From Hymenobacter volaticus (GTDB taxonomy: Bacteria; Bacteroidota; Bacteroidia; Cytophagales; Hymenobacteraceae): 64,000 nt of DNA. The notes beneath the pieces are model-generated. The model saw only the letters and a program-made list of their open reading frames with translations, had not been told where the DNA came from and did not search any database. Shown in pieces: positions 3,798 through 41,541 of this stretch (positions are counted from its first letter, which is position 1; every line of letters starts with the position of its first letter). The translations under genes and the position numbers were made by a program. The DNA is taken from assembly GCF_022921055.1 (NCBI RefSeq), contig NZ_CP095063.1:252381-316380 (forward strand). Reading direction: 5' to 3'.

Positions 3798-5004
3798 TTA
3801 TTGCGCTAAGGCGCTTTTTCGGAACTGCGACGGTGTAGTCTGAGTGCTCTTTTTGAAAGCGGCGTTGAACGCGGACTTCGAATTGAAGCCGGCCGCAAAC
3901 CCGATTTCCTCTAGCTTTAGGTGCGCAGTATCGGGACTTTGGAGCTGGCGTTTCACTTCCTCGATGCGGTAAGTATTGATGAAATCAAAGAAGTTTTGTT
4001 GGCACTGCTCGTTGATAACCTGCGAGAGGTGGTGCGGGGGTAGGTGCAGGTCAGTGGCCAACTCGGCTAGTGACAAGTCGGGACGGCGGTAGGGTGTGGA
4101 AGCCGTCATCAGGGTACGGAGGCGAAGCAGAATGTCGGTGGTCGCCTCGGAACTCAAAGCGGTTTTCTCATATTTCTTGCGCGGGGCCGCGGGCTCTGTT
4201 GCTGATTCTTCGGGGGGAGCCTGCAAGGTCAGCAGCGTGGATCGACTGATGGCCCGGCCGCTCATGCCGTAAAACAGTAAAGAAATAAGCAGGGCCACCC
4301 ACACATCGCCCGCATCGTTGACATCGCCGGTGGAGAAGTGATAATAGGTGGTTGTCGCCACGTACACGAGCAGCAACAGGCCAAGCCCCAGGCCTAAGCG
4401 CTTAAGCCAGCCGAGGGCGGGTGCCCCATGGGTGGGGCGGGCGGCCTGCTGTTGCTGATAAGTGAGCAACAGGCGCAACTGAAGCCCCCGTAGAGCAGGA
4501 GGTAGCCACCCAGCACAATGTAGAAAGCGGCGTAGAACTGGGTGTAAGTGGCAAACCACCAGAAGTTATGCAGCGCCTCGGGAGCGGCGGGGTGAGGTTG
4601 GTGAAACGATTCGGCGACGGTGCGCAGCTTCCAGGCATTGCTCTGGGCAAAGAAAGGCACCAAGTAGACGGTGTGCGCCACGGCGGGTAGAAATAGCAAC
4701 AGGTAGCGCGGCCGCCAGCGAAATGCGGGCTTGATCAGGCTGCGGGCATAGAGGTAGAGCAGGGGCGATACCACAAAATTGAGTGGCTCGGTAAGGCTCA
4801 CGAAAAAGGGCACCAACTGGATGTAGCCGGAGTAGCACAAAAGAATCTCGACAACCAGTAAGGCCAGGCAAAACACCGCTAGCCCAACAGGCGGTTGCTA
4901 AGCCGCTCTCCTTGGGACGAAAAAAAGAACATCCCACTTAAGAACAGTCCCTGCGCGGCCCCGAGGAGAATCACAATTGACCATATATTGAGAAAGGGAG
5001 ACAT
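3798..5004 (-). CDS. Membrane-anchored AraC-family regulator, two frameshifts
   Basis: Transcription factor with an N-terminal bundle of about six to seven membrane helices and a C-terminal AraC DNA-binding domain (SLAELATDLHLPPHHLSQVI, then KLEEIGFAAGFNSKSAFNAA, ending TPSQFRKS). The gene is spread over three frames. The start is the ATG at 5004 (MSPFLNIWSIVILLGAAQG), giving NRLLG then a stop; the next frame resumes with LAVFCLALLVVE; after YLLLYGG the third frame resumes with LQLRLLLTYQQQQ. One missing base in the GGG at 4883-4885 (plus-strand CCC) and one in the G5 run at 4485-4489 (plus-strand C5) rejoin the frames into about 402 residues, normal for the class. The signal sensed is unknown. 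Either an assembly error or a true pseudogene. Confidence 0.8.
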
Positions 5005-5496
5005 ACACCAGCAGAGCAAGAAAATCGACCGCAGGTATGCGGTCGGGCAGCAAAGAATAAACCGCGGAGGCGAGGGTCAAGCAAGCTAAATTTAAAAGTA
5101 ATTCAGATTTCCCATGTCAGCTCCAGCCGATCTGCTTGCCTACTAACCACCCAGGTCGGGCGCCACTCGTCTCGCCCATAGTAGCCTAATAGCGCAAGTC
5201 AATTCTTCGTCCTCGCATGAGTAGCCTTTTCGTACTACCATTACCGGCACTCACTGACCGCTGCAAAGAAAAGCGGATAGAGACTTACCTCTTTGGCGGC
5301 AAAGGGGTTGACCATTTAGGCTTGCTCGACAGGCAACGGCTCGAAGCACAGTGAAAGCAGGCACCCCGCAGATACCAATGCCTTTGACAAATCAAATGGT
5401 AACATGCGGCAATACCCAAGCAAGAAGCCACTTAGTCTTAGGCAACGGGAAGTATTGCCTACTTCAAGGTCCGGCAACTGCGCATTATAACGAAGG
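5005..5496. other. Intergenic region, no gene recognised
   Basis: About 490 bases between the start of the AraC-type regulator and the end of the chitinase gene. I see no convincing ORF, repeat or structured RNA. It should hold the regulator's promoter near 5005-5100. Confidence 0.5.
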
Positions 5497-6603
5497 CTAG
5501 CGGGCAGCTTGGTATAAGTAATCCAGCAGGCCGTGTTGAGGCTTGTCGCCGGTCAGTTCCCAAAACATGATGCCGCCGAGGTGTTTGGCGCGGACATAGT
5601 GGGTTTTCAGTTGAATGGATTTCTCGTTGTCGAAGGAGGCAAACTCCTGGCGGCGGGCACTGTAGGCGTACGGGGCCTTGGCTACGTCGTCCCAATACGA
5701 AACGAAGCCCCGTGTTGCCGACAGACTGTCGGCAAAATCCTTGTAGTTAAAGGTCTGCTTAAATTTTCCGGCTTGCTCCAGCCCCTGGTTCCGGGGCGGA
5801 ACGCCGCTAAACACCCGGGCGTAAAAAGCCGCGCCAACAACAATCTTGCCCGGCGCCACACCCACCGAATCGAGGAAGCGCACGCCGTTGTCGATGGAGG
5901 GTACTTGCTGCGTAGTGGAATACAAAGGGGTGTGGTGGCCCGTGGTAGTGCTGTAGCCGTTGACTAAGTCGTAGCTCATCAGGTTGACGCGGTCAACCAA
6001 GGGCATCACGGCCGGCCACTCTACGGCGTGGCGGAGGTAGTCGGGAAAACCGCCGGCAGCGAAGCTTATTTCGTAGTTTTTGCCGAGCGTGGTGCGCAGG
6101 GATTGTACCAGCAAGGTGAAGTTGTGGCGGTCTTCGGGCGCAAAACGGTGGCCGGGTGGACCGGCAACAGCCGGGTATTCCCAATCCAAGTCAATGCCGT
6201 CGGTGTGGGTGTCAGTAAGCACTTGCTTGACGGAAGCCGCAAACTCGTTGCGCCCTTGGGCGGTAGCAAATACCTGTGAGCAGGTTTCGCAGCCGCCCCA
6301 GCCGCCCAACGAAAGCATCACTTTCAACTGGGGGTTCTGGCTCTTGAGGGCTACGAGCGCAGCCACCGTGGCTTTATCCTTGGGGTTGTCGAAGGCAAAG
6401 GCCGTGTTTTTTAGGTGCAGAAAGCTGTAGATAATGTGCGTGAGCTTGTCGGTCGGATATTGCCGAAAGCCAGTAGCATCGCCGGCGTAGTAGGCAATAA
6501 TGGCCATGCGGGGCGCGGCAACAGTAGAAGCAGGACGAATGGGAAGCAAAGCCGTGCTCCCCGCCGCGACAAGCAGCAGCGCTAGGTACAGAACATTTCT
6601 CAT
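5497..6603 (-). CDS. GH18 chitinase, secreted
   Basis: Endo- or exo-chitinase of glycoside hydrolase family 18, hydrolysing beta-1,4-GlcNAc polymers by substrate-assisted catalysis. The catalytic signature DGIDLDWEYP is intact (catalytic Glu about residue 142 from the ATG at 6603). The second conserved strand is KVMLSLGGWGG, and the barrel ends with GGIMFWELTGD. An N-terminal hydrophobic stretch (MRNVLYLALLLVAAG) is a signal peptide. The ATG at 6603 is chosen over a TTG eight codons upstream because it starts the signal peptide directly. There is no chitin-binding module: this is a single-domain enzyme of about 368 residues. It stands alone, flanked by two frameshifted genes, but is itself intact. 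Confidence 0.9.
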   Translation of the reverse strand: MRNVLYLALLLVAAGSTALLPIRPASTVAAPRMAIIAYYAGDATGFRQYPTDKLTHIIYSFLHLKNTAFAFDNPKDKATVAALVALKSQNPQLKVMLSLGGWGGCETCSQVFATAQGRNEFAASVKQVLTDTHTDGIDLDWEYPAVAGPPGHRFAPEDRHNFTLLVQSLRTTLGKNYEISFAAGGFPDYLRHAVEWPAVMPLVDRVNLMSYDLVNGYSTTTGHHTPLYSTTQQVPSIDNGVRFLDSVGVAPGKIVVGAAFYARVFSGVPPRNQGLEQAGKFKQTFNYKDFADSLSATRGFVSYWDDVAKAPYAYSARRQEFASFDNEKSIQLKTHYVRAKHLGGIMFWELTGDKPQHGLLDYLYQAAR

Positions 6604-6718
6604 AGAACAGGCCGCCAACAGGTACAATCAAGCTTGCCCGAAGATAGGAGGCTAGCGCTAAATAGCGGCGGGTTTAGCTATGTAGAGAATTACCCGCTTT
6701 CATTACAAAGCGCTCCAC

Positions 6719-7653
6719 TTAGCGCCGGGCCTTCCGGGTCTGCAAAGCTTCTAATAGGGGGCGTATGCCGGCAAGCAGTCCTTGGGTCGCTGCTCCAGTG
6801 GAGTCCAAGCTGGGGTCGAGAATAGTTAAGTCCAGACCCACAACGTGGGGCGACGTCAGTAAGGGAGAAGCAGCGCCACTAGTTCCGCGTAAGACAAGCC
6901 CCGGGTTGAGGTGAGTCTACGGCAGGCATGAGCGTGCTGTCGAGTACATCCACGTCGAAATGAATCCAAAACCCATCGAGTTTAGCGGATCTGACGTGGT
7001 GAAGAAAAGCCTGTGCGCAGGCGTGTGGCCCCAATTTCCGGACGGTCGCCAAGTCGGTATAATGAATAGTCGAGGCCGCCATTGCGGCTAGGTAGGCTTC
7101 GTCTTCGTCGCGGTTGCCTACGCACCACGCGTGCTCGGCCCGCACGTAAGGACTTAGACCACCCAGATTGGTGAGTTGAGTTGGACCACGGCCCGTTACG
7201 AGAGCTAGGTCCATACCCGCGGCCCCGCCCGAGGCCGATAACCCGGGCCAAGCATAATCCGTGTGGCCATCCAGAAAGAACAGGCCGTACGTGCCAATTT
7301 GCTTTAACCCCAGCATATTCCCTATCAAGATGCTACAGTCGCCCCCAAGCACCACCGGGAAGATGCCCTCTTGCACTAGGCCCGCTACGCAGGCCGCCAA
7401 CTGCAGCGAATAGTCGGCAATGGCTTTCGCGTTGCGCACCCCAGTCTCTGGGTCCAAGGAGCCCACGTAAGGGGGCGCCGGCACCGTATGAACCTGCTCC
7501 GGGCTAACAGGTCGTGGAAGCCCAATGTTTGAGCCACGCGGGCAACTGGTATACCCCCGGCACGACACCAGGCACCAGTTCTTGTAAGCCTAAATTGCTT
7601 GGCGCCTCCACTAAGTTGATTCGCAGCGGTGGCATTATAGCAGACCTGTTCAT
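6719..7653 (-). CDS. Arginase-family hydrolase, four frameshifts
   Basis: Ureohydrolase fold (arginase/agmatinase/formiminoglutamase superfamily), a binuclear manganese enzyme acting on guanidino or formimino compounds. Pieces in order: PLRINLVEAPSNLG, GFHDLL, SPEQVHTVPAPPYVG, VVLGGDCSILIGNMLG, LFFLDGHTDY, WIHFDVDVLDSTLMPAVDSP, then after the annotated-looking stop LTSPHVVGLDLTILDPSLD and GLLAGIRPLLEAL. Four single-base deletions (near 7521-7523, 7505-7507, 6899-6902, 6863-6865) rejoin these into about 306-312 residues ending at the TAA at 6719. Metal motifs DGHTD and DVDVLD are present; the usual GGDHS is GGDCS, so one canonical His ligand is Cys. Starts at 7653 or 7635 are both possible. 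The substrate cannot be assigned. Confidence 0.75.
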
Positions 7654-8259: not shown

Positions 8260-8855
8260 ATGACTACCTTACACTGTAGCATCGCCTTGCTACTGTCGGT
8301 CCCCCTGGCAAGTGTGGCGCAGCCCGCCCCGTCCGATTCGGCCCCCGCTCCCCGCCACCTGTTCACGTTGCATACGCTCCGTATTAAATCGCCTTTTATT
8401 CCGGCGCTGGGGTATGAGGTGCCGGTGTGGTCCCGCTGGGGGTGCGCGCTAGCCTGGGTGCCACCTACAACAGTAATCGGTATCGCTCCGACTACTATGA
8501 CGCCATGGGAGTTTTAATCGCGGGCACCGCCCACTACCGCTACACTACCTTGTACACGGACGCCTCGCTTAACTATTACCTGCAAGCGCGCAAGCCGACT
8601 TTCGTCGGGTGGTTTGTGGGCGTGGGCTTTATAGCAGCCTATGCCTATCGTCGGGTGACAAATGATAACCCTCAGTACCCTACGCGCACATCGCATGACG
8701 TGGCGGTGCGGCCTTTGTTGCGAGGTGGGCGGCACTGGGCGCTGGGGCAGCGCTGGCTCCTGGATACCCATGTGGCGGTGGCAATATCGAGTTATCCAAC
8801 CCAGCGGATAGCTCTTAATGAGTTTATAGGCGTAGGAGCGGGCTATCGGTTTTAA
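8260..8855 (+). CDS. Small outer-membrane beta-barrel-like protein, one frameshift
   Basis: Unrecognised exported protein. It has a signal peptide (LLLSVPLASVAQ) and then alternating aromatic and small residues typical of a small outer-membrane barrel (RASLGATYNSN, HYRYTTLYTDASLNYY), ending in GVGAGYRF with a terminal Phe. The N-terminal frame (8260 onward) and the C-terminal frame (from about 8427, ending 8855) overlap. One added G in the G5 run at 8438-8442 joins them as RWGVRASLGATYN, giving about 198 residues. Membership of an OmpA/PorT-like barrel class is inferred from composition only. Confidence 0.6.
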
Positions 8856-9144
8856 CTCGTGCTTATACTCTCCGCTGTGTAGGATAGTGTTCCAACAGAC
8901 ATCTGTATGAGGAAGGATATGGTGTGCATCTCTCTTTACTTTGTGCTCATCAGTCGTGCACGAGAAATGACTGATACGAATTAATCTGCGCCGGTTAAGA
9001 GACTTAACTAATGGCTACTGGCCGTAAACCGACTGCAAGTAGGTGCTCGGTGCGAACAACGAAAGCTTCATCTTCTCGAGAGCAGTGCTGCGGCCTGGTT
9101 TGCGACAGGCTGGGCTTACTATTTGAACCTACTGCATTACCCTC

Positions 9145-9816: not shown

Positions 9817-10934
9817 CTACGTCAAGGCTACTTTCTGCCCACTCTTAGCCGCCTTATAAATCCCATCCAGCACCCGTAGGTCTTTGCGTCCTTCTTCGCC
9901 GGAAATATGGGTTGGCAATGGCTTATTGGCCAGCAGGCAGGAAGCAATGCCATCCAACTGGGCAGCTTGTTGATTGATAACTGGGAAATGAAATGCGCCC
10001 TGGCTGCTGCGACCTGTAAAAGGTCCGTAACTCAGACCCGGACTGAGTTCAAAGAATCCATTATCAGCGGAAGCAAAAAACCGGTCGATGTTGCAGGTTG
10101 CTGTCGCCGTGGAGGTGCACACGGCACCACTAGGAAAGTAGAGTTGCCAGGTGATAGACTCTTCCACTTCGGTAAACAAATTCGGCAGGGTGACGGGGCC
10201 AAACTGCGCTGTCACAGCGACCGGTTCTTCCCCGAGCACGTAGCGGCTGCTTTGCACGCAGTACACGCCTAGATTCATCAATGGGCCGCCCCGGCCAGGG
10301 CTTTTTTCAAATGCCAATCCTCGGGGATAATGTCCGCTAAGCGGTACCCCAAAGACGCCTCCATCAAACGAACTTGCCCGAATACCTTTTGCTGACCAAG
10401 CCGTTGGAGTTCAAGGTGGTTTGGTTCGTAGTGCAACCGATAGCCTACCGCTAACTGCACGCCGGCCCGCTTACAGGCGGCAATCATATCCTGGCAATCC
10501 TGCTCAGTTAAGGCCATAGGCTTCTCGACAATCACGTGCTTGCCAGCCTTGGCCGCTCGCAGCGTAAATTCCTTGTGCAGCGCATTGGGCAGGGTGATGT
10601 AGACAAGGTCAATGTTTTTATTGGCCAGGATTGTGTCAAAGTTCTGATATGAGTACACATTCTTTTCCGGGATATTATACTCGCTTTTCCAGCGGGCCGC
10701 CTTGGTTGGGGTGCCCGTGACAATGCCGGCAAGCTGGCAGTACTGGGAAACTGCGAGGCCCTCACGGATCAGGTTGGCATACCGGCCTAGCCCGCACAGA
10801 GCCACCCGAAGCTTTTTGCCGGTATACGGTACAGCTTTCGTTTGCGCGTACAATGCACTGGAAGGCAGTAGCAGCGAGGCTCCAAGGCCAAATCCAAGTT
10901 GCTCAACAAACCCACGCCGGGACACTTTTTTCAT
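9817..10934 (-). CDS. Gfo/Idh/MocA-family oxidoreductase with Tat signal, one frameshift
   Basis: NAD(P)-dependent sugar oxidoreductase family, here exported: the N-terminus VSRRGFVEQLGFG is a twin-arginine signal followed by a hydrophobic stretch. Rossmann motif VALCGLGRYANL, then VYITLPNALH and the conserved catalytic-region EKPMA. The first frame ends early at LKKALAGAAH; the second resumes at GGPLMNLGVYCVQ and runs to 9817. One G added to the GGGG at 10289-10292 gives AGGGPLMNLGVY, the family consensus, and a protein of about 372 residues. It is the last gene of the GH29-GH3-oxidoreductase run (184-base gap), suggesting it acts on a released sugar. Confidence 0.85.
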
Positions 10935-11118: not shown

Positions 11119-13504
11119 TTATTGCACGTTCTCCACCTTCTGAGCGACGTTGAACTGCGCTTGAAGCCGAATATCTTCCGACGAAGCGCCGATCAGCACG
11201 GTAAAGGCGCCCGGCTCCACCACCCATTTCAAGTTGGTGTTCAGTAGCATTAGATCTTCGGCCGTTAATTCGAAAACCACTTCCTGCTGCTGCCCGACGG
11301 GCAGCGCGAGCCGCTGAAACTTCTTCAGCTGCAGGGCCGGGGTGACCACCGAGCTAACTTCATCGCGCAGGTATAGCTGCGCGACTTCGTCGCCGGCGCG
11401 GGTCCCAGTGTTTTTGACGGTGAAGCGCACTGTTACCTGCACGGCCCCGAGTGCTCGGCGGTACTAACGCGCAAGGTGGAGTACTCGAACTTGCTGTAGC
11501 TCAGGCCATGCCCGAAGCTGTAGAGCGGTTTGGCGCTGGTTTCGACGTAGTCGTGCTTGGCGGGGCGCTTGGCGTTGTAATACACTGGTAGTTGCCCGAC
11601 GTGTCGGGGCACCGAGATGGGCAGGCGGCCGGCGGGGTTGTAGTCGCCGAACAGCACGTCGGCCACGGCGTGGCCGCCTTCCTGGCCGGGATACCACGCA
11701 TCTAGCATAGCCGGCACGTGGGCTGCCATCCAGTTCAGGTTTAGCGGGCGGCCTTTGATAAGCACCACGACTACCGGCGTGCCGGTTGCTACTACGGCTT
11801 GGAGCAGTTCCTGCTGCTTACCGAGTAAATCGAGCGTGGCGCGGTCGTAGCCTTCGCCGCTTTCCATGTCGCTGAGAGGCTGTCCGCCTTTGGCGGCCGT
11901 GACGGTAGCTGCTCCTGTGCTCTGGTAGTCGGTTTGGAAGTCGCGGGCGCTGGAGCCGCCGAGCACCACCACGGCCACCTGCGCCCGGCGGGCCGCCGCT
12001 ACGGCCTCGGCAATATTCGCATCGGTAGTATCCCGAATGGCGCAGCCTTTGGCGTAGAAAATCTGCGTAGCCGGCGACACCTGCGCGCGAATTCCTTCGA
12101 GCACTGTCACGATGTTGCTTTCGGGTTGGGGCGCGGTGTAGTCGCCGAGCTGGTTGTAGATATTGTCGGCATTCGGGCCGATGACGGCCAGGCGTTGCAG
12201 GGTTTTGGCGAGGGGCAGCAGATTTTTTTCGTTTTTCAGCAGCACAATTGATTCCTGCGCTACCTGCCGGGCCAGCTGCACATGGGCCGGGTTTCTCACC
12301 AGCTTAGTTGCTTTTTTAGGGTCCACGTAAGGATTCTCGAACAGACCTAGGTCGAACTTCACCCGCAACACTCGGCTTACGGCGCGGTCGAGCGCCTCCA
12401 TGGAAACTAGCTTTTGCTGATGGGCAGCCAGCAGTGCCTTATCGTAGCCGTAGCCGCTCAAGTCGTTGTCCAGGCCGGCGTTGAGGGCCAGGGCCGCTGC
12501 CTCGGCCGGGGTAGCGGCTACGTGATGGCTGCCTACCAGCCCCGATATGCTTCCTAAATCGGATACCGTAAAGCCCTGAAAACCCCACTGCTTACGCAAC
12601 ACGTCCGTCAGCAACCACTCGCTGGCCGAGCAGGGCACGCCGTCGATAGAGTTGTAGGCCGTCATGACGGATAAGGCACCCGCTTTTACCGCCGCCCGAA
12701 ACGGTGGCAAAAAGCTCTGGTTCAACTCGCGGTAGCCAGGGCTGATGCTGCCCCCGTTATGGCCCCCTTCCGGTACGCCGTAGGCCGTGAAATGCTTCAA
12801 CGTCGACACTACATTGAGCCCGCTTTTCAGGCTAGTACCCTGGAAACCCTGCACCATCGCGGCCCCCATCTGCCCGTTGAGCACCGGGTCTTCGCCGTAG
12901 GTTTCCTCGACCCGCGACCAGCGCGGCTCGCGAGCCAAATCCAAGACCGGGCCGTAGCCGATATGAGTGCCCTGCACCCGCGCCTCGCTGGCAATAACCG
13001 AGGCCATGCGCCGGATGAGGGCGGGGTCCCAGGTACTGCTCTGCCCAATAGAGGTCGGAAATACGGTGGTGCCGATGGCCATGTGGCCGTGAGGGCACTC
13101 CTCGGCCAGCAGCAGCGGAATATGCAGCCGCGTATGCTCGACGGCGTACTTCTGTAAGGCATTGGTGGCTTCAGCCGCTTGCAAAGGATTCAGGCCAGTT
13201 TTCAAGGTCTTCTTCGTCCACGGGTCGGCGCGCAGTGTGGCCCATAAAGCGCCAATGTGGCGCTCGTCTATAGCTTTTTTGCCTGCCGCGCTGATGTCAA
13301 CTCGTCGCTCGTCTTTCTGATACATTTCCCAGCCGAGCAGCGTGGAGAGCTGCCCGACCTTTTCCTCGACCGTCATGCGGGCCAGTAGGTCCTGCACCCT
13401 CGCTTCGGTGGGGCGAGGCGGTCTTGGTAGAGGGGTTTGGGCGCCTGGGCCACGGCAACGGTGAAATTGAGCCAGCAGAGCCCAAGCGCTAGATAGGTGG
13501 TCAT
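11119..13504 (-). CDS. GH3 beta-glucosidase-like hydrolase, two frameshifts
   Basis: Periplasmic exo-beta-glycosidase of family 3 (beta-glucosidase or beta-xylosidase). Signal peptide from the ATG at 13504 (MTTYLALGLCWL, cleavage after VAVAQA). Family start VQDLLARMTVEEKVGQL, KHF motif in VVSTLKHFTAYG, nucleophile Asp in GFTVSDLGSISG, the C-terminal alpha/beta sandwich (VVVVLIKGRPLNLNW), SFGHGLSYS, and a fibronectin-III-like domain (RFTVKNTGTRAGDEVAQLYL). One missing base near 13410-13413 splits off the signal peptide and one in CCCC at 11445-11448 splits off the FnIII-like domain. Corrected length is about 795 residues, usual for the family. It starts 37 bases after the GH29 gene, so they are probably co-transcribed. 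Confidence 0.87.
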
Positions 13505-13540: not shown

Positions 13541-14985
13541 TTACTCGGCCGTAAAGGCAAAAACCAGTGCCGGATAGGTTCCTGCTTGTTGGGTTAGGTC
13601 GGCAGGCAGCGTAAGCTTCACTTTGTCTCCTACGCGCGTCCACTGCACGGCCTTGCCCGTTTGCAGGAGTTTTAGCTGGCTGCCTTTTCGGGAAGGTTGC
13701 CGGTCCATTCCAGGGTGGCCGGCGCGGGTTGGTTTTCGGGTAGGCAGGCAATGGCGTAGCGGGTGCCCTTTTTGCCTTGGGTGAAATAGGTGCTGCCATC
13801 CTGGAAGCGGGCGGTAGCACGGGTGTTATAAATGGCCTCGCCGTTCACGTCCAGCCACTTGCCTATGGCCGCTAACCGCGTCACGGCTTCGTCGGCCAGG
13901 GTGCCGTCGGGCTTGGGGCCGACGCCGAGCAGCAAACTGCCGCCTTTGGCGACTACCTCTACGAGCGAGTGAATAATCTTGGTAGGCGACTTGTAGGTGT
14001 CGTTCGGCACGTAGCCCCAATTGTTGGCCAACGTCAGGCAGCTTTCCCAAGGGTTGGCCAGCGGCAACTCGGGTACGTGCTGCTCAGGAGTTTGGTAGTT
14101 CTCGTAGGGGCCGTGCACGGTGCGGTCGACCATGAGCAGGCCAGGCTGGGCCTGCCGGGCCATAGTAGCAATGCGCAGCATATCCACCTCCTGGCTGAAC
14201 TCCGGGATGGGCGCGCCCCAAGAGCGTACTTCCGCGTTCACGGTTTCGCGGGGCCGCACCCAGCCGCCGTCGAGCCACAGAATATCCATCCGGCCGTAGT
14301 CGTGCATTAGCTCGCTTATTTGGTTGTAGGTGAAGCTCTTGTACTGCTGCCACCGCCACGGATACTTCTTGATGTCGTAGTTGACGTTGCGGTTAGGCGT
14401 GGCGTACTTCGGCCACCAAAACTGCGGTGAGTGCCAGTCGGGTTTCGAGAAGTACGCCCCAATCATAAACCCTTGCTGCCGAAAGGCCTCGAACACGTAC
14501 TTGGCCACGTTGGCCCGCGGATTATCGCGGAACGGTCCGTTGGTGATCTTGAAATCCGATTGCTGGGTGTCGAACATACTGAAACCGTCGTGGTGCTTGG
14601 TGGTAAACACCAGATAGCGCATGCCAGCTTTTTTCGCGACGGCCGCCCATTGGTCAGGATTGAACTTCACCGGGTTAAACTGTTGGCTTAGTCCCCAATA
14701 CCACTTTTTGTAGTCTTCGTAGGCCACGGTACTGTCGCGCGTCACCCAATCTTCCGAGCACAGCTGCCACGACTCGATAATACCCGGCACGGCATACAAA
14801 CCCCAGTGCAAAATCAAACCAAATTTCTGGTCGCGCCAACGTTCTAGCTTTTGCTTAACTAAGGGATCAGTAGGGGCTTCGTACTGCGTCGATTGCTGGT
14901 GAATACCTTGCTCTTGGGCGCGCCCCGATTGTACACTAGCGGCGGCTAGTATGAAGAAGGCGAGGGCAGCTTTTTTCACGTGCAT
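13541..14985 (-). CDS. GH29 alpha-L-fucosidase, 3' frameshift
   Basis: Retaining alpha-L-fucosidase of family 29, exported by the signal peptide AALAFFILAAASVQSGRAQ. Seen: GLILHWGLYAVPG, YLVFTTKHHDGFSMFD, and the nucleophile strand MDILWLDGGW. The uninterrupted frame stops at 13672 after NLPEKAAS. Adding one A in the run at 13685-13688 (plus-strand TTTT) continues as GSQLKLLQTGKAV to a final VFAFTAE and the TAA at 13541, completing the C-terminal beta-sandwich (about 481 residues). It heads a minus-strand run with GH3 and the Gfo/Idh protein. Fucose-specific binding is inferred from family; a GH29 enzyme with other specificity is possible. Confidence 0.88.
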
Positions 14986-16229: not shown

Positions 16230-17592
16230 TTATTGAGGAAGCATTTTGGTCGATGGTCGATAGCCGAGACGATGCACAACCAACAAGCCAACTTTGCTAC
16301 CCTGGAGCTGACCTTGCCGGATAGCATCGGGGAAATGTATGCCCCGTAAAGCCGCGACACGGCTGCTTCTTGGGCAGCTTGCCGAAAGGAAGTGAAATGC
16401 CGGGGCGGCAGCCCAAACACCCGCTCGGTGGAGTCGAGATAAGCATAAGTCGGCCCGAAATAGTGTTCGAGCACTGTTGCCGCGGCCGTTGAGATGACGG
16501 AGTGACCACTTAAATATTCTGGGAATGGCGGGGTTTGGAGTAGCGGCTTCCATTCAGGGTCGAGATAGCGGCGAATCACTGTTTCGGGCCGAATCCGGTT
16601 GCTATGGTATTTCTCTTTCCAACAGCAAATGAACGCATCGGTGAGGGTGAGCGCCAGCACAGCGTGGATTTGCAAGCTACGGTTAAACGAGAAGTGGCTC
16701 TGATGGCAAGCCAAGCCGGCAATTTTCATCCAGTGCGCCCCCGGCGACATTTTCTTGAGCCCAACTTGTAAGTGCCCCTGGTCTTGCAAAGCAAAGGGTT
16801 ACAGTCCCAAAAGCTGGCAATTTGCCGTTGCTCCCGAGTAAGCGTGTTGCCTACCTGGCGTACGCTGTCCATGAGCTGATAAAAGCCAGAGCCCTTGCTA
16901 GGCGAGAACGCGAGCGGAGGAGCCGGCGCAAATTGTCCTGCCGAATCCAAGAAAAAGGGTCGAATAGAACTGAAGTACGGCTCCACGGCCGCGAAGAAGC
17001 CGGGTGGGGTAGGGTACCAATAGCCTTCGCCCTCGGTAGGGGCGTAGCGCGGCAGGTCGCTGATGCGGTAGTACTTATCTTGCTTGGCATAGGCGAGCAC
17101 CGCTTGCGCAACCTGCTGAGCGTATTGCTGCGAGGCCGTGACTACTGCCGCGGGCATACCTCGATGCCTGCACTCCTCCAGCAGTTCTTGTTCGCGAGCT
17201 TGCAACGCTACGCCCGAGGGCTGTAGCTTGCTCGCTGTCTGGAGGGTGGCTAACAGCGCTGTAAGCTGGGCAGAGTACACCTTTCCCGTCGGCCTAGGAA
17301 CAGTAAGCGGAACGTGTAGGCGGCTAGCCATCGAGGGGCAGGTGGAGTCATTTTGCGCCAGCACCTCGTTGCCCGCTAACAGGGCGTAGGCAAAAAAACG
17401 AGCGGCCAGCGGCGGATTGGTGACGTCGTGCATCATTAGCTCGTTCATCTGGTCCACTACCAACCCAATCCGGTCAGCGGTAGGCTCGTAGTCGGTCGGC
17501 GTCGGGCGCCGGCAAGATAACCACCCGACGCTAGCGACCAGAAGTAACACGCTCAGCAGCAAACGAATTGATGACAACGAGGAGATAATCAC
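16230..17592 (-). CDS. Vanadium-dependent haloperoxidase / PAP2-fold lipoprotein, two frameshifts
   Basis: PAP2-superfamily enzyme of the vanadium haloperoxidase type, which oxidises halides with peroxide or acts as a phosphatase. GTG start at 17592, 19 bases after the previous stop, with a lipoprotein-like signal (LLLVASVGWLSC). Vanadate/phosphate-site pieces: KEKYHSNRIRP, FPEYLSGHSVIS and, only after correction, SRLYGGIHF (SRxxxGxH). The first frameshift, near 16794-16799, separates FWDCNP from FALQDQGHLQVG; the second, CCCC at 16342-16345, destroys the catalytic His by turning GGIHF into GAYIS. Corrected length is about 454 residues. It ends the SusCD - ASPIC - glycosidase run, a setting in which such peroxidase-like proteins recur in Bacteroidota. 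The true reaction is unknown. Confidence 0.8.
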
Positions 17593-17611: not shown

Positions 17612-19335
17612 CTATTCAACTTTGCGGGCTTTGGCCGCCTCAATAGCTTGGGCCACTTGCTCGCGGTACTTGTCGAACGTGTCGTCGGCGAAGGTGATTG
17701 TCGGGATGGGGCGCTGACTTACTGCCACAGTTCGGGTTTTGCTGAAGCCGTACTCGTGCACGCCCGTGCTGCCCGAACCCGGGGCCGGGGTGCTGAGGTG
17801 GTTATAGCTATCGACGTAGGAGTAGAAGCCGGCCGGGTAGAGTGGGTAGCGCGGCACTTGGGTCAGGGGAAACGCGCTCATCAGGGCATCATAGTGCATT
17901 TCGGCAATAGGCAGCACGCCGGGGTGGCGCTGGGCCAGGTCGGCCACGAGCCGACGGGTACCCTCGTACATATCGGCTTTTGGGTTGTTTTCCCAAAGCC
18001 CGGCTATGTCCATGAAATAGGAATCGAGGTGATAGTTGGTGAGTACTTTATCGATCCGGTTGCGCAGGTAGTTGCGCCACGAGGCCACGCCCACATTCAT
18101 GACGGGCATCCAGCCGTCGCCGTGCCGGTCGTTGTCCCAATCCACCCAGTTCAGGTCCCAGTTGTCGCCGTCCACGTGTTGAGTGGCGGCGTCGGCAAAC
18201 TTCTTGAACTCCGGCAGTTTGCGGTTGGCCGAGTTGGTGCCAAACATGGCCGAAAAGTGAAATCCCAGCTTGTGACCTTCGTCGATAAGTTGCCGGAAGC
18301 CCTGGTCGCCGCCCATGCGCGGGTCGGTTTGATAGAGCGGATAGTTCCAGTAGTAGCGCCCATCCCAACCGGGCAAAAATACCAGCACGTTCTTGGGCTC
18401 GATTTGCGTAGCTATCCACCGCAAAATGGTAAGCTGCTTGGCGTAGTCGTTGAAAATGAATCCGGTCCAGTGGGCGCCGTGCAGGGCCACTACCAATTTA
18501 GTATCGCGCGCCCAAGCCGGCATGTCGGGTCGGGTGGCGTAGGCCGGAATACGGTAAGCCTGGGCTAGCTGGTCGAAGTGGGGCTTGGCAATGGCCTCGT
18601 ACGTTGCGGCGGCTCCAATACGCCACTGGCAGCTCTGCACCCGCTTGCGCCGCTCCCAGCCGGCCTGCTCGTAAATCAGCTCGGCGCGGTAACTATCGGG
18701 GCCGGGTTGTAGGAAAAATCGGGCCGGGCGCACTTCTGTCTGCCGGGCCGATAAACCGAAAAAACCTCCTTGGGGCTGCTTGATGATGATGAGCGGGGTG
18801 GAAAGTTGCCCGAACAGCTGGGGGTACTCGAACGTGTTTTCGTCGTCGTGCGGGTCCGTGAAGTTGGCGCCGGCCAGCGACAATTCCCCCGCGGAATACC
18901 CCGCACCACAGTGCTAATAGATTTGATGGGCTGGTTCATCTGGGCCGATACGCGCCACTCCACGCTGCCATCGGGGTTGCGCTGGAGTTCGGCGGTGAGC
19001 TCCCCAGCCGCTTTTTCCTGCCCACCGGCCCAGGTAAAGCCTTGGCACAAATAGCGGAGTCGGTCGCCGGAACGCTCCAGCCGCGTGCGGGCCGGGTCAA
19101 TGGCGTAAGTGTTCTCGAACGTCTGCACCCGAAAGCTGAACTGGAAGCCCGCAAGCTCGGCTGAGGGCTCAGGCCACGCAAAGCTGAACTTCATTTCGCC
19201 CTTGCCCTTGGACGGGCTGTACACGCCGTCCAGGGAGGTGAGCGGAATCAGCTCATTCTGGGCTTTAACGGGTTGGATTAACACCCCTAACCACCCTAGA
19301 GTAGCCAACAAAAGCTTATGCGTAAAACCTTGCAT
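17612..19335 (-). CDS. Putative (beta/alpha)8 glycoside hydrolase, DUF6259-like, one frameshift
   Basis: Exported protein (signal LLLATLGWLGVLIQPVKAQ from the ATG at 19335). Residues 25-190 look like a beta-sandwich (EMKFSFAWPEPSAELAGFQF); the C-terminal half resembles a TIM-barrel hydrolase: LVVALHGAHWTGFIFNDYAK, VLVFLPGWDGRYYWNYP, DSYFMDIAGLWENNP, VLPIAEMHYDAL. Candidate acidic catalytic residues are the Asp of YFMDIAG and the Glu of PIAEMHY. The two frames join at the G5 run 18886-18890 (plus-strand C5), where one added G gives GIPRGELSLAGANF. Corrected length is about 574 residues. DUF6259 is my best family guess, not a certain match. It lies between the FG-GAP lipoprotein and the haloperoxidase. 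Confidence 0.65.
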
Positions 19336-19415
19336 GCTGTCTGGTGAAAATAAGATAGAAGCGCAACTGGCCAGCAAAGCACTATTATAACTCTGGAAGA
19401 AAATTTCAGACTATT

Positions 19416-27822: not shown

Positions 27823-27879
27823 ACGCAAAGTGTTAAGAGAAAAGTTTGAAGCGCGGGAGAGCTGCCCGTCAGCGTAAGA

Positions 27880-30287: not shown

Positions 30288-30288
30288 G

Positions 30289-31484: not shown

Positions 31485-33139
31485 TTAGTCGATCAGCACC
31501 CCGATGTAGGCGTTGAAAGTGTCGACTTCAAAGTTGTCTTTGGTGAGACCAGGGATGCCGAGGGGTTTGAAGGCGGTAGTCGGCGTCACGAAGCGGTACT
31601 CGCCGCCTTTTTGGCGCACCCGCACGGGCATAGTAAAGCCGGGCACATCAGCCACCCACCGCCCCAGAGCCTCGCCCTTGTCGAAGCGCACTTCCAAGGT
31701 CGGGATGTTGGGGTGGTGCAGATACTGCTCGAACATTTTGGTGAAGTCCTGGCCGCTTTGCTGGTTGATGTAGTTGATAACTTGGGTGCCGTTAACGGTT
31801 TGGTGGTAGAAGGTTTTGTTGAGGCCCCGCAGAATCTGCCGCCACTTCTCGTCGTCGTTAATAAGGGTGCGGGTCATGTTCAGCAGGTTGCCGCCCTTGG
31901 GGTACATGTCGCCGGAGCCCTCGTTGTTTACGTTGAACACGCCCACAATGGGGGCGTCGTTGGCGATGCCCAGGCGGGTGCCGTGCACGTATTCCTGGCC
32001 GGCTTGCTTGCCGAACAAACTTTCCACAAACAGGCTTTCCGAGTAGTTGGTGAAGCTCTCGTGCACCCACATGTCGGCCAGATCCTTGGAGGTGATGTTG
32101 TTGCCGAACCACTCGTGCCCGCTTTCGTGAATGATGATAAAGTCCCACTTCAGACCCCAGCCCGTGCCCGATAAGTCGCGGCCCCGGTAGCCGTTGTCGA
32201 ACTTGTTGCCGTAGGCTACGGCACTCTGGTGCTCCATGCCCAAGTGCGGCGACTCGACTAGCTTGTAGCCATCCTCATAGAACGGGTAGGGCCCAAACCA
32301 GTGCTCCATGGACTTGAGCATGGGCTTCACGTTGGCCGCGAACTGCTGTTTAGCTTTCGGCAAGCTCTCGGGCAGCACCCAATAATCCAGCGTCAGCTTG
32401 CCCTTTTCGCCCTGGTAGGTGTCGCCGAAGTGCTGGAAGTCGCCAACGTTCAGGGCCACGCAGTAGTTGTTGATGGGGCTGGCGACAAACCAATCGAAAC
32501 GAGTAGCGCCGCCTGGCAGCTTGGTAGTTTTGCGCAGGCGCCCGTTTGATACGTCTTTGAGTCCTTTAGGCACTGTCACGCTGATTAGCATGCTGTCGAC
32601 TTCGTCAGCCTGGTGGTCTTTGGTGGGCCACCAGATGCTCGCTCCCACGACCTGGCAGGCCGAGGCCACCCACGGTTTGCCTTGCTTGTCCTGGGCGTAC
32701 ACCAGCCCCCGTCCCAGGGAGCCCGCTTCGCCTCGGTGGGGCTACCCGAGTATTGCACCGTAAACGAGTCCTGGGTGCCCTGCTTGATAGGCTGCGGGAA
32801 AGTGACGAACACTGCATTCACTTCGCGGGTAAACGGTACCGACTGTCCGTGGTACAGTACCTTGTCCACGGCCAGGTTGGCGAAGAGGTCGAACTGCAAG
32901 CGCGTGAAATCCTGCGTGGCCGTGAAGCCAAACAGGTTGGAACCGCTGATAAACTTGCGAGCCGGGTCCAACTTCACGTCGAGGTGATAGTAGTGCAGGT
33001 CGTAGCAGGTGCGCAGCGGCGTGAGGGCCCCGCGCAAGGTATCGGCCCGGGTAAAGGTCGGTGGGGCGGGCGTTTGGGCATGTGCCTGCTCGAGTAAACC
33101 GATGCTAACCAGCAGGAGCAAAGCCTTTTTTAGGGCCAT
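31485..33139 (-). CDS. M1-family metallopeptidase, one frameshift
   Basis: Exported zinc aminopeptidase of family M1. Signal peptide ALLLLVSIGLLEQAHAQ, N-terminal beta domain (CYDLHYYHLDVKLDPARKF), and the catalytic motif IIHESGHEWFGNN (HExxH) with the third ligand Glu in WVHESFTNYSESL. The first frame ends in a scrambled tail after RAPWDGG; the second resumes as VYAQDKQGKPWVASACQ. One G added to the G5 run at 32706-32710 (plus-strand C5) restores APWDGGLVYAQDKQG, the family sequence before the WWPTKDH box. Corrected length about 551 residues, a short M1 form lacking the helical C-terminal domain. It follows the GH146-like gene by 51 bases, so probably the same operon. Confidence 0.87.
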
Positions 33140-35829: not shown

Positions 35830-36179
35830 ATGCACACTCCCCAAGAACTCATTAAACAAGCGTACGCGGCTTTCAACGCGCGCGACATCCCGACGGTCTT
35901 GGCCACGCTTCACCCTCAAGTACGCTGGGCCCGGGCCTGGGAAGGCGACTATGCCACCGGTCACGAGGAAGTGCGCGCTTACTGGCAGCGACAATGGCAG
36001 GAACTCGATCCGCACGTTGAACCCACGCAAATCATTGAATTACCCGATGGCCGTTTGGAAGTCAGGGTGCAGCAAGTGGTGAAAGACATGCAGGGGCCCT
36101 CGTCTTTGAGGGCCTGGTGACGCATGTGTACACCCTGCAGCACGGCCTGCTCCAGCAAATGGATATCGCGCCAAGCTAG
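35830..36179 (+). CDS. NTF2-like (SnoaL-type) small protein, one frameshift
   Basis: Small alpha+beta cone protein of the NTF2-like superfamily: TPQELIKQAYAAFNARDIPT, VLATLHPQVRWARAWEG, HEEVRAYWQRQWQ, LEVRVQQVVKDMQG. The uninterrupted frame stops at 36120. One G added to GGGG at 36093-36096 continues as ALVFEGLVTHVYTLQHGLLQ to QMDIAPS and the TAG ending at 36179, giving 116 residues, the expected length with the final strand. The superfamily includes isomerases, polyketide cyclases and non-enzymatic binders, so function is open. Confidence 0.75.
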
Positions 36180-36282: not shown

Positions 36283-36373
36283 TGACTATACCAAGCAATA
36301 CCACTTGGCCAATGACCAGCAACGAGCTAGTAATTAGAAGCGGAACCAACACTAGCGCAACGGAGACTACTCT

Positions 36374-37581
36374 TTATTCAACTTGGAAGTCGGCTGATGT
36401 CAGGGGGCAAGCCGGTAAAGAAGTGGGGGCACTTGTTGCGTAAATGTTGTTTTGCCAGCAGTTATTACTTCCCGTGCCGTCCCATAGCAAATCGACTGCC
36501 GGCAGGGGCAGAACAGGGGGAGCCGTTCCATTGCGCAGAAGCGTGTTTCTCGCAATTTGCGCGCCATCAGCATCCGGGTTGATCAGCAAAAAGGCTTCTG
36601 GGGGATGTGGGCGAGCTCGCCTAAAAGCCGTGTGCTCACCACGGCAATACCCAGAAAGTTATTGTCTTGCACCCGGTTTTGCGATACGCGGGTATTATCG
36701 GTGCCCACGATTAGGATACCACAACCGCTGGGCACCACACTCTCAAACCCACCGCCCGGTTCGGCAAAGTTGACGTGGTTGTTGCGGTAAGCCTGGTTTT
36801 TTTCCAAGACTATATCTGTCGAGGTAGTCACTGTCAGGCCCGGGAGCAGCACGACCAGGAAGCCGGCGGTATTATCGTAGGCTACGTTATGACGGGCCAC
36901 CACGTGAGAGCAATTCTCAATCTCCAAGCCGTTGACGTTGGCAAAAGCTCGATTGTAATTCATGCGGATGTTCTCGGACTGCCCGACATAAATACCCGTA
37001 TCGGAGTGGCCACTCGCCGTGCAGTACTCGATCAGGCCGTCGTTGCTGAACAACGGGAACAAGCCATATTCTCCGCAATTTATTGTGGTGATGTGGCTGA
37101 GCACAAAGTCGTTCACGCGAAGCAGGAAGACCCCATTCTCTTTAAATCCCCGGAACGTTATGTTATACAGCTCGAAGCCGTCGGCGTTGCTAGGCTCGGG
37201 TCTTCTGCCACCCACAAACAGGCCGTCTTCTTCCGCTCCTGGATTTTCAACAACAACGAACGGACTACCAAACAAGGTGATATTGGGTTTATTGACGTGG
37301 AGCGCTTCGCGGTAAGTACCGGGCAGAATCAGGATCAAGTCGCCTGCCTCCGCTGCATCAAGGGCTGCTTGAATGGAGTGCCCGGGCTTAACAATAATGT
37401 CTGGTTTCCGGAGTTTTAAATCCGTTTGGTTTTCCTGCGCCTCGACAGTAGGAGCTGCGACGGAAGGCACTTCTTTCTCGCACGCACTGAGCAGGAAAAG
37501 AACGAGCACAAATAAGATACTCTGCGCTCTACTTCCTAGCCAGCTACCGGTGGTAAGCAGCTTGTAAATAGGTCTTTTCAT
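36374..37581 (-). CDS. Right-handed beta-helix lipoprotein, one frameshift
   Basis: Secreted lipoprotein (LFVLVLFLLSACEKE, Cys about 34) with a parallel beta-helix. It opens with VKPGHSIQAALDAAEAGDLI and LILPGTYREALHVNKPNITL, the NosD/pectate-lyase-like start, then repeated rungs such as VFLLRVNDFVLSHITTINC and NVNGLEIENCSHVVARHNVA. The first frame ends with AHIPQKPFC. One base added to the run at 36600-36604 (plus-strand G5) gives AHIPPEAFLLINPDADGAQI and continues to 36374, about 402 residues. Family members include polysaccharide lyases and epimerases, but I see no clear catalytic signature, so the enzyme class stays open. Confidence 0.78.
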
Positions 37582-38296
37582 GACAGATGATTAAAAGGAT
37601 TGGCGATTAGTCAGCTGCATCAAGTTGACAACCTAATCGGACCCACTACATCCTCTGTCCCGCGTACGCTATGCCACGTTCCGCTTGAAAGCGGAAAATA
37701 CGTGCATGTGGCTTTTCACCGGAACAGCCTAGGCAGTAGCACGAGAGGAATTCGAGGTATCAACCAAAGGTGTTTCGCAAGAGAATATTGCGAAGCGTAG
37801 ATCAGCGGAGCGCACAGGTGGTGCTGCGCGCATGTCAGGGCCGACGTCCTGTGCCGTTATGTGCAGCTCGGGAGCAACAGCGAATACCGGAAACCTGCTT
37901 CATAGGCAAATAGCTTTAGGTGAAGAGGTTAGAGAAGATAAGGATTTGAACTCAGTTGTGCAATACTCTTACTCTCTCGTATCAAGCAGCGTCGCGTCCT
38001 CAAATGCGTCCCGTAGCTGCACCACCCGTAATCAATGCAAAAGGAATTCTATAGAGCATGTAATAAGCCTTACTAGAGTAAAACGTTCAAGTGCAGATGA
38101 CGCTGCTGTGCTCTACGCCAAAGATTGAGCGGAAGACCGCCGGTAGGCTCCCGTTGTTTGCCGTGGGCGCCGGATTAAATAATCTACAGGAAACCGTTGT
38201 TAACGTATCACCGCCTGTTCTTAGTGGGAGAAAGGAAACAGGCGGGTTCGGTACTAAAAACAACTGTCTACTTAACTAGTTGTGGCGGTTGCAGAG
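37582..38296. other. Intergenic region, no gene recognised; hairpin near right end
   Basis: About 715 bases. Short ORFs at 37600-37800 and 37832-38128 lack family character and are not called. CCGCCTGTT (38211-38219) pairs with AACAGGCGG (38237-38245), 50 bases beyond the SDR stop, and may terminate that gene. Confidence 0.4.
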
Positions 38297-39295
38297 CTAT
38301 TGCGCCGTGTCAAAGGTGATGCCGGTGAGTTGTTCGGTCAAGGGCCATAACCGTTTCGCATCGGCGGCATCAACTGAATAAGCCTTCACCCCGGCTGACA
38401 TTGCTGATCCGGGCGATAAACTAGCAACATCTGCATCCTCACAGTATACTCCCCCAATGTTGCTTAATAAGGGACTCGTCGCGCACCAAATCGTGGTTGC
38501 GGCCCCTTGTGGTATCGTTTTTAGCGAAGCAATAACTTCCGGAACACTATTTCCTTGCTCGTCATAGAAGCCAAATCGTTGAAGTAACTCCATAGGGGCT
38601 TCTCTGGCCAACTCGGTCCCCCAAATATTGCCGGGGTGCACTGCATATGCTCGCACGCCAAACGCTTGGGCCCGCTTATCCAATTCCAGTGAAAACAGGT
38701 TGAGCGCGGTTTTCGATTGCCCATACGCGGCCAACGTTTCGTAGTCTCGTTTTTCAAAGTTTGGATCTTCGAAATGAAATGGCCCAAACTGGTGCCCTAG
38801 CGAGGAAACGTTGACCACTCGGGCGCCATTGGCTTGCTTCAATGCCTTCCACAACCGAGCGGTTAGTTGAAAGGGCGCTAGATAGTTGGTGGCTAATTGC
38901 GATTCTATCTCTTGGTTGTTTCGGCGCAAAGGCACGAACATGATGCCGGCATTATTGACCAGCAGATGCAGAGGTCTACCCGAAGCCAAGAACGTTGCCA
39001 CAAAGGCATCAACGGAGTCCGGATTCATAAGGTCCAGTTCTGTTACCTCCACGTTGGCAACTCCCGCCAGATTTTCCCGGGCCTTGTCCAGGCTTCGGGC
39101 GGGCACGATGACAGTAGCGCCCGCGTCGGCCAGCGTTTTGGTGGTTTCTAAGCCAATGCCGGTGTAGCCGCCCGTCACGATGGCCACTTTGCCGGCTAAG
39201 CTTATTCCCTTGATTACCTCACTTGCCGTGGACGTGGCATTGAAGCCCGAACCAAGTGGCGTTTGCAAGGCGCCGTTATCATTGTTTTGTTTCAT
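38297..39295 (-). CDS. Short-chain dehydrogenase, retinol-dehydrogenase-like
   Basis: NAD(P)-dependent oxidoreductase of the classical SDR superfamily. Cofactor motif TGGYTGIG, strand LDLMNP, LLVNNAGIMFVP, catalytic Ser in VVNVSSLGH and the YGQSK motif (YxxxK). The 332-residue length with a ~35-residue N-terminal extension and a long C-terminal tail fits the WW-oxidoreductase/retinol-dehydrogenase-like bacterial group. Intact. It follows another SDR on the same strand but a strong terminator separates them, so it is likely transcribed separately. Substrate unknown. Confidence 0.88.
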   Translation of the reverse strand: MKQNNDNGALQTPLGSGFNATSTASEVIKGISLAGKVAIVTGGYTGIGLETTKTLADAGATVIVPARSLDKARENLAGVANVEVTELDLMNPDSVDAFVATFLASGRPLHLLVNNAGIMFVPLRRNNQEIESQLATNYLAPFQLTARLWKALKQANGARVVNVSSLGHQFGPFHFEDPNFEKRDYETLAAYGQSKTALNLFSLELDKRAQAFGVRAYAVHPGNIWGTELAREAPMELLQRFGFYDEQGNSVPEVIASLKTIPQGAATTIWCATSPLLSNIGGVYCEDADVASLSPGSAMSAGVKAYSVDAADAKRLWPLTEQLTGITFDTAQ

Positions 39296-39382
39296 TTATA
39301 AGTACTTGATTAAAGAAAAGGTTGCTTCTACAAACCTTGGCTACTTTGTTTTAAAGTTCACTTGCCAAGCTTAGAGCCATAA

Positions 39383-39433
39383 ATCAAACAGCAGGGTGCC
39401 AAGAACTCGAATGCCGGCACCCTGCTGTTTGAT
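39383..39433 (-). terminator. Strong hairpin terminator downstream of SDR 2
   Basis: ATCAAACAGCAGGGTGCC (39383-39400) pairs perfectly over 18 bases with its complement at 39416-39433. It starts six bases after the stop of the SDR at 39439 and separates it from the next SDR. Confidence 0.8.
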
Positions 39434-39438
39434 AATCC

Positions 39439-40209
39439 TTATTTCATTAAACTGATATTGGTCATCCCGCCGTCGGAGAGGATTTCCGTTCCGACCACGA
39501 AGGAAGAGTCGTCAGAGGCCAGGAAAACCGCGGCTTTTCCCATATCCGAGGGGAGCCCCATTCGGCCTACAGGAATCAAGTCTGTCCAAACTTGTTTGAC
39601 TTGTTGTAACTGCTCCGGCGGTACTATTTTACCGAATACTGGAGTGTCAATAGATCCGGGCGACAAGGTGTTTACCCTGATTTTTCTTTCCAACAAGTCG
39701 AGCGATAACCCTTTAGCCAAAGAGATAACCGCTGCTTTCGCCGCGGAATATACTGTCATGCCCGGGGCAGCCCGGTGGGCGGCGCTGGAACCAATGAGAA
39801 TGATGGAAGCCCCATCGTTGAGATAAGGAAGTGCTTTTTGAACCGTGAAATAAGAACTCTTCAAATTCAGGTCCATATACCGGTCGTAGTTGTCTTCGGT
39901 AATCTCCGTGATGGCGGCCATGGGGCTGCCATCGACGATGCCGCCCGCATTTACCACCACCGTATCAATCTTACCGAACCGCTCAAAGGTGTCTTTGAAA
40001 ATCCGTTCGAGGTCTTCCATTTTGGTTACATCGCCTTGGATGCCGATAAAGCCGGAGCCAAGCTCCTCAACAGCTTGGTTGAGGGTTTCTGGATTTCTTC
40101 CGGTGATGGTGCCAACGGCCCCTTCAGTATGGAAGGCTTCAGCAATACCGAAGCCAATGCCACTATTGCCGCCCGTTACCACGGCGACCTTGTTCTGTAG
40201 TTTGCTCAT
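39439..40209 (-). CDS. Short-chain dehydrogenase (SDR 2)
   Basis: Classical SDR of 256 residues: MSKLQNKVAVVTGGNSGIGF cofactor motif, VVVNAGGI, catalytic Ser in IILIGSSAA and YSAAK (YxxxK), ending VVGTEILSDGGMTNI. Intact. The first nine residues are identical to those of the SDR at 41541, and its upstream region carries the same four-box GTAAC array, so the two look like copies of one HxlR-controlled unit. Probable role: reduction or oxidation of a small reactive compound, as is common for HxlR-linked SDRs. Substrate unknown. Confidence 0.9.
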   Translation of the reverse strand: MSKLQNKVAVVTGGNSGIGFGIAEAFHTEGAVGTITGRNPETLNQAVEELGSGFIGIQGDVTKMEDLERIFKDTFERFGKIDTVVVNAGGIVDGSPMAAITEITEDNYDRYMDLNLKSSYFTVQKALPYLNDGASIILIGSSAAHRAAPGMTVYSAAKAAVISLAKGLSLDLLERKIRVNTLSPGSIDTPVFGKIVPPEQLQQVKQVWTDLIPVGRMGLPSDMGKAAVFLASDDSSFVVGTEILSDGGMTNISLMK

Positions 40210-40255
40210 TGTTCAATTCTATTGGGATTGTGCGCTGCAAAGCTAGAATCGAAAG

Positions 40256-40313
40256 GTTACTTTTAGCAACTTTGTATCTAAAAGTAACAGTAACTCCCAG
40301 GTAACCTGGTAAC
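40256..40313. promoter_or_regulatory. Control region A: four GTAAC boxes and an 11-bp inverted repeat
   Basis: GTAAC occurs at 40284, 40290, 40301 and 40309 (steps 6, 11, 8), identical spacing to control region B at 41616-41645. GTTACTTTTAG (40256-40266) and CTAAAAGTAAC (40278-40288) form a perfect inverted repeat around a promoter-like CAACTTTG at 40267-40274. It lies upstream of SDR 2 and is probably bound by the HxlR regulator encoded at 41648. Confidence 0.6.
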
Positions 40314-40783
40314 TTAGGCTATACCAACCGTCTGAACCAACATGGGCATATTGTTCTTTGACAAGCCGCTGCTCATCCAGGCCACACCACTTACCGGCGG
40401 CACAGGTAGGCCCTTTTATGAGGTAGGGCGAAGATTAGGTATAGTGGGAGAAGCCGTTGCTCAGCGTTTTGCTACTGTCTTAAATACCAAAACACGTACG
40501 CTAGTACCGTATGCAGCACTAGGAAGAAAGGCTGGTTTTTTGAGGCAATGTTCGAGCCGAGGCACAAGAGGGAGTGGTGGCTAGAAATTCAGCTTTAAGT
40601 GAAACGGCAACTAGATTAACTTAGTCTTTCCGATGTGTGGGAAAGATACCTTTGCGATGATAGAGGTAACAGTGGAACGTGACATCGGCAATTGGTAAGC
40701 GCCCGATAGTTCGCCAAGCTTGCCTGCAAAACTTTGAGGAACGTCCTACTTGAATCAGGCAAGCGAAAGTCACGCTGCAGGTA
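40314..40783. other. Intergenic region; site of a possible lost hxlR copy
   Basis: About 470 bases between the two related SDR genes. The first 30 bases still resemble the start of the hxlR gene (TAACTTAGGCTATACCAACC against TAACTTATGCAGTGCCAACC), with the start ATG changed to AGG. The 80-codon ORF at 40342-40584 has no recognisable HxlR sequence and is not called. Confidence 0.4.
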
Positions 40784-41541
40784 TTATAGACCGTAAATGC
40801 CCCGGAAACTGATAGCTTCTCGCCTGTAATCCAACCGGCATCGTCAGAAGCCAGAAAAACGGCCACCTTAGCAATATCTGCTGGCTGACCCGTACGACCG
40901 AGGGGAGTAGTAGACACTAAGTGGGTTTCCATCTCGCTCCCAATAAAGCCGCCACTGCGCGAGCCTTCCGTTTCCACGATACCGGGCAGGATAGAGTTGA
41001 TGCCAATGTTGCGGCCACTGAATTCCTTGGACAAGGCCGTGGTCATGGCATCCAAGGCGGCTTTGGAAGCTGAGTAAACCGAGCCGGTGGGCAGTAGTGT
41101 TCTACTTGCCTCGGAACTGATATTAATGATGTTGCCGCCGGCTGGCCCAAACTGTTTTACCGCCGCCTGGATGGTAAGCAATGAGCCCAACACGTTGAGG
41201 TTGAAATGCTGATGGAAAGTGTCTACTGTAACTTCTTCAATGGGAGCATATTGGTAAATACCCGCGTTGTTAACCAGGATATCCACGGCGCCGAACGCCG
41301 CGTTGGCTTCGGCAAACAGCCGGATTACTCCCACTTCATTCGCCACATCGGCTTGCACCGAAATAGCTGTGCCGTCATTATTCGTGATGGCTTGCACTAC
41401 TTCGTCGGCCCCAGCCTTGCTGGAGGCGTAATTCACCACTACTTTGGCTCCTTCGGCTGCAAAATAGGTAGCAATAGCCGCTCCTATGCCTTTAGAGGCC
41501 CCCGTAACGACGGCGGCCACCTTATTTTGTAGCTTGCTCAC
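40784..41541 (-). CDS. Short-chain dehydrogenase (SDR 3), 3' frameshift
   Basis: Classical SDR: MSKLQNKVAAVVTGASKGIG, DILVNNAGIYQYAP, INISSEASR and YSASK (YxxxK), then AGWITGEKLSVSG. The uninterrupted frame runs on with 50 unrelated residues to 40621. One G added to GGGG at 40800-40803 (plus-strand CCCC) gives the standard SDR ending SVSGGIYGL and a TAA at 40784, 252 residues. Divergent from hxlR across control region B, the classic arrangement of an HxlR sensor with its target oxidoreductase. Confidence 0.88.

Follow-up and report, generated by a model that had tools for sequence, protein, structure and literature searches.

Why should genes of unrelated function in one part of a bacterial contig be broken again and again by the loss of a single base? 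The question is raised by a 64,000-nucleotide stretch of DNA of the soil bacterium Hymenobacter volaticus (assembly GCF_022921055.1, contig NZ_CP095063.1, positions 252,381 to 316,380; G000:C3:252381-316380 in our coordinates), called here the window, which forms the right end of the 316-kb contig C3 in a genome of 7.13 Mb assembled in 10 contigs, one of them (C1) 5.3 Mb long. An original prediction, made from the letters of the window, had listed eighteen one-base deletions and no insertion in twelve genes within 38 kb, and had attributed them to under-called G/C runs rather than to independent decay. Our sequence comparisons lead to the same cause and to a wider scope. We propose that the frame breaks are almost certainly consensus errors of the assembly and that the genes would be intact in the living cell, because of the sign of the lesions, their dependence on run length, their spread over the genome, the presence of broken essential genes and the intact state of the relatives. 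The breaks are genuinely present in the assembled sequence but, biologically, they are an artefact.

Two approaches were used to call frame breaks. In the orthologue test, which is independent of codon usage, 938 intact open reading frames from 130 Hymenobacter loci were compared with the window by alignments that tolerate frameshifts, using up to five distinct relatives for each gene. The second approach was a coding-frame hidden Markov model (HMM), a three-periodic Markov frameshift model for which long open reading frames of the same genome served as the training set; it was run at frameshift costs of -12 (strict), -10 and -8 (permissive). Across nine genes lying from 3.8 to 37.6 kb, the orthologue test supported 15 one-base losses. 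Fourteen of them, in eight genes, were seen with every full-length relative aligned (two to five per gene), and their positions agreed between relatives to within about 15 bases; in this comparison with orthologues, a check that the original prediction had proposed, the relatives are intact where the window genes break. Three further sites (around 8436, 36095 and 40813), each in another coding stretch, were called by the HMM alone, the second from a cost of -10 and the other two at -8 only. Together these make 18 losses in 12 coding stretches, the numbers of the original prediction; the five sites that it named are all among them, and we infer that the two sets match site by site.

The absence of insertions was borne out too, since in the orthologue alignments no insertion in the window was common to two relatives. 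Lone insertion calls were obtained at 7064 (one of three relatives), 18307 (one of five), 48906 (the only relative) and 53953 (one of five), the last two adjoining a gene start, and lone loss calls close to a start at 27844, 51557 and 61319 (one of five relatives each). At a cost of -8 the HMM called 12 losses and two insertions in the interval from 3.8 to 41.5 kb, and further right a single loss and a single insertion; its own insertion calls at this cost lie at 17494, 24771 and 62626.

The losses follow the length of G/C runs. Each of 42 losses (14 in the window and 28 elsewhere, 175 kb in all) was attributed to the longest run lying no more than six bases away, a rule that favours long runs and that was applied identically to G/C and A/T. 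These run tallies used the best relative per gene; the window set omits the loss calls at 27844 and 61319, and the run-length tally also omits the insertion call at 48906 and the loss in the beta-helix protein gene. By presumed original G/C run, the loss rate was 4/3578 at length three, 8/840 at four, 17/174 at five, 6/22 at six and 3/4 at seven; the corresponding counts for A/T runs were 2/2942, 0/797, 1/230, 1/54 and 0/10. A run of at least four of any base lay within four bases of 25 of the 42 losses, as compared with 15% of random coding sites. With the HMM (cost -10), 96 of 165 losses were near a G/C run of at least four, against 2 of 14 in the control loci described below and 11% of random coding positions of this genome. 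DNA alignments made without gene models gave the same picture at long runs: of 39 G/C runs that measure at least five bases in the relatives, six were one base shorter here and none was longer, a proportion unchanged when only 76–96% identity was considered, while relatives compared with one another (76–96% identity) had 2 of 196 one shorter and none longer (Fisher P 0.0003). Among 73 A/T runs of at least five in the DNA comparison, there was a single case each of a run shorter by one base, shorter by two bases and longer. Homopolymer spectra by themselves are confounded by a difference in G+C (54.6% against 58–63%).

The defect is not confined to the 38 kb in which it was first seen. The original prediction was right that the breaks are there, but losses occur in all contig groups sampled. 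The HMM at -12, applied to 1.236 Mb (about 17% of the genome, window included), called 131 losses as against 12 insertions over 920.7 kb of coding sequence: 5 and 0 in the window, 33 and 3 in the rest of C3, 11 and 0 in C2, 36 and 1 in C1, and 46 and 8 in C4–C10, where the higher number of insertions may reflect some true decay. Loss rates per coding kb ranged from 0.097 to 0.171 across contig groups; in 22 control loci of the same genus there were 8 losses and 6 insertions in 341 kb. The HMM loss rates are low estimates because the model misses many of the orthologue-supported window sites, recovering 5 of the 14 at -12 and 9 at -8; of 196 single-base losses planted in control loci it called 150 and 170 as losses at these two costs. 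A local cause of the breaks was considered and is ruled out by the sign bias in every contig group sampled. The orthologue method, counting events at least 30 residues from the start and 10 from the end in clusters of at least 55% identity, and outside the window the best relative per gene, found 28 losses, 4 insertions and no in-frame stop in 130 kb outside the window (0.215 losses per kb). This count covers 113 of 127 gene clusters, and 21 of them carry a loss. In the 22 control loci (50.4 kb, 36 of 38 clusters counted) the same method saw one stop but neither losses nor insertions; at the rate of this genome about 11 losses should have appeared there.

Two of the affected genes are ones without which a cell cannot live. 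The rpoC gene is spread over two frames (C1:4440040-4440510 and 4436324-4440010); compared with six of six relatives, two of which share 99% identity with it, it lacks a single base at a four-base G/C run. It occupies one frame (1408–1513 residues) in 58 of 60 other Hymenobacter genomes, the exceptions being one without a match and one with a partial match at a contig start. The gyrA gene is also split: it lacks one base at a five-base G/C run by comparison with four of four relatives, and it lies in one frame in 28 of 30 other Hymenobacter genomes; a gyrA paralogue at C1:2.51 Mb is likewise split. Because RpoC and GyrA are indispensable, the losses must sit in the assembly and not in the cell. 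A third gene, rho, which was found because it is broken, shows three losses relative to its one aligned relative. The two gyrA exceptions, G005 and G010, are assemblies of 4–5 contigs, 93–94% complete, in which the gene extends over two frames, probably through the same kind of artefact.

How could such errors arise? In the mechanism that we favour, the assembly would drop one base, mostly from G/C runs, with a probability rising steeply with run length (about 0.1% for runs of three, 1% for four, 10% for five, 27% for six and three of four cases for seven), and insufficient correction would have left the errors in the consensus, with which the raw reads should disagree. A single long-read platform was probably used; a contig of 5.3 Mb in a 10-contig assembly favours long reads. 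Could the lesions instead be real? Pseudogene formation, with the carbohydrate-use region of C3 decaying by independent deletions, would fit the position of 13 of the 15 supported losses within the first 20 kb, among accessory genes that are dispensable in principle. Decay of this kind should leave mixed lesions limited to dispensable genes, but the lesions are losses, mostly at G/C runs, the sample outside the window has losses in large excess and no counted in-frame stop, adjacent genes are intact at 77–93% identity, and rpoC, gyrA and rho on the 5.3-Mb contig carry the same signature; we regard true decay as very improbable.

A mutator lineage, lacking mismatch repair for instance and accumulating slippage deletions in G/C runs throughout the genome, would account for the run-length dependence, which looks like slippage. 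Slippage should yield insertions as well, and these are not in excess; A/T runs are almost untouched, and rpoC and gyrA would be lost. This explanation is as improbable as decay. That the G/C runs are truly shortened and are read across, by genome-wide recoding (programmed frameshifting) or transcript slippage, would explain survival with split rpoC and gyrA, but the close relatives G115 and G009, whose RpoC is 99% identical, have open rpoC frames, many losses lack a run of four nearby, and no other common element is evident in the loss contexts, in which no motif search was made; we consider it the least credible of the three.

Some observations weigh against consensus error, our preferred explanation. 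Of the five essential genes checked, only rpoC and gyrA are split, rpoB, dnaE and ileS being unbroken. There was no run of at least four within four bases of 17 of the 42 losses; some of these, in paralogues of 55–60% identity, may be alignment noise, and the rest are unexplained. In the DNA comparison none of 180 G/C runs of four was shortened, where about two would be expected, so that the 1% rate at length four is that of the gene comparison alone. Finally, losses are more crowded in the first 20 kb of the window than the genome rate predicts (P 7e-6, the segment having been chosen after the fact).

This last point bears on a boundary suggested at 41.6 kb. As had been stated, the genes to the right of it look unbroken: between 41648 and 61995 all 11 genes with an orthologue are uninterrupted, disagreements close to a start aside. 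An edge of assembly quality at this point, set by polishing or coverage, would agree with the lack of losses on the right, where about 15.8 kb were aligned (P 0.03 at the genome rate, for an edge chosen post hoc). Against it, 13 losses fall within 12.9 aligned kb at 0–20 kb, one in 16.2 kb at 20–40 kb (leaving out the beta-helix gene loss) and none in 16.2 kb beyond 40 kb, so that 20–40 kb is nearly as clean as the right part and no change falls at 41.6 kb; the G/C-run content of the right part, similar per kb to that of the left, also speaks against it, predicting about four losses there. We therefore find such an edge unlikely, and the boundary weak: what stands out is how dense the losses are in the first 20 kb. 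Their excess between 3.8 and 19.4 kb is not accounted for by G/C-run content, and uneven read depth or polishing is a likely reason. The window itself was picked for its breaks. For clustering of errors, P was 0.001 (orthologues) and 0.004 (HMM) with the window included; once it is left out (P 0.15 and 0.012) there is little evidence that errors cluster in the rest of the genome.

The broken coding stretches are listed in the table.

Coding stretches of the window with one-base losses (positions in the window; relatives are those showing the breaks)
Feature	Position	Strand	Losses	Support and remarks
AraC-type regulator gene	3801..5004	-	2	4/4 relatives; Pfam HTH_18 on the C-terminal piece
Arginase-like gene	6743..7620	-	4	2/2 full-length relatives; Pfam Arginase; a third, partial relative confirms both breaks that it covers and adds an unsupported insertion call
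Coding stretch	8314..8854	+	1 (~8436)	HMM at -8 only
Gfo/Idh/MocA oxidoreductase gene	9823..10934	-	1, at a four-base run	4/4 full-length relatives; N and C domains in separate frames
GH3 glycosidase gene	11122..13504	-	2	5/5 relatives; GH3 and Fn3-like domains in separate frames
Alpha-L-fucosidase gene	13544..14985	-	1, near its end	5/5 relatives
PAP2-type membrane gene	16248..17568	-	2	4/4 relatives, one only 31% identical; PAP2 slightly under the Pfam cut-off on one piece
Gene without Pfam match	17615..19353	-	1, at a five-base run	5/5 relatives; one partial relative adds a lone insertion call
M1 peptidase-like gene	31488..33139	-	1, adjoining a five-base run	3/3 relatives
Coding stretch	35830..36178	+	1 (~36095), at the four-base run of the original prediction	HMM at -10 and -8
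Beta-helix protein gene	36407..37581	-	1	1/1 good relative (G053, 72% identity)
SDR gene, open past its family-typical end	40621..41541	-	1 (~40813)	HMM at -8; a 246-aa homologue (46% identity) stops near 40795, frame open to 40621

Carbohydrate-use genes dominate the left part of the window (GH92, GH18, GH3, fucosidase, SusC/SusD, two GH127 and a LacI regulator), with other enzymes interspersed. Several left-part genes are unbroken: those for an acyltransferase, GH18, an FG-GAP protein, SusC (with one loss call close to its start, from one of five relatives), SusD, both GH127 enzymes, LacI and one SDR. The best named matches of the GH18 gene (5497-6627) are in H. crusticola (78%) and H. sp. 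CA2-7 (75%). The piece of the beta-helix gene at 36583-37581 has a strong homologue in only one of 119 other Hymenobacter genomes, with two more at E ~9e-4. In the right part, a single 1483-aa frame (56882-61333) fuses an AcrB/CusA-type RND pump to outer-membrane efflux (OEP) domains, and relatives carry homologues of similar length; at 48816-49842 a ferredoxin (Fer2) domain is fused to an adenylate/guanylate cyclase, and, going by the only relative aligned, the gene may start further upstream, with an insertion-like disagreement around position 48906. The last 15 kb of C3 gave no match to its first 15 kb, which is uninformative on topology.

What are the consequences for users of this assembly? 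By extrapolation, 0.15–0.25 losses per coding kb over about 5.3 Mb of coding sequence would amount to roughly 800–1300 false gene breaks, and pseudogene counts, claims of gene loss and protein predictions drawn from it are unreliable without correction. The same caution perhaps applies to the G005 and G010 assemblies with their split gyrA. Among known error types, bacterial long-read assemblies that have not been corrected keep residual homopolymer indels, and the present genome resembles them in its one-base homopolymer losses, in the splitting of unrelated gene classes and in its few long contigs. It differs from them in that nearly only G/C runs and nearly only losses are concerned, A/T runs of 5–7 being nearly spared. 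Homopolymer miscalls of the 454 and Ion Torrent platforms are of both signs and fall in both base classes; they share with our case an error that rises with run length, whereas the contiguity of this assembly argues for long reads.

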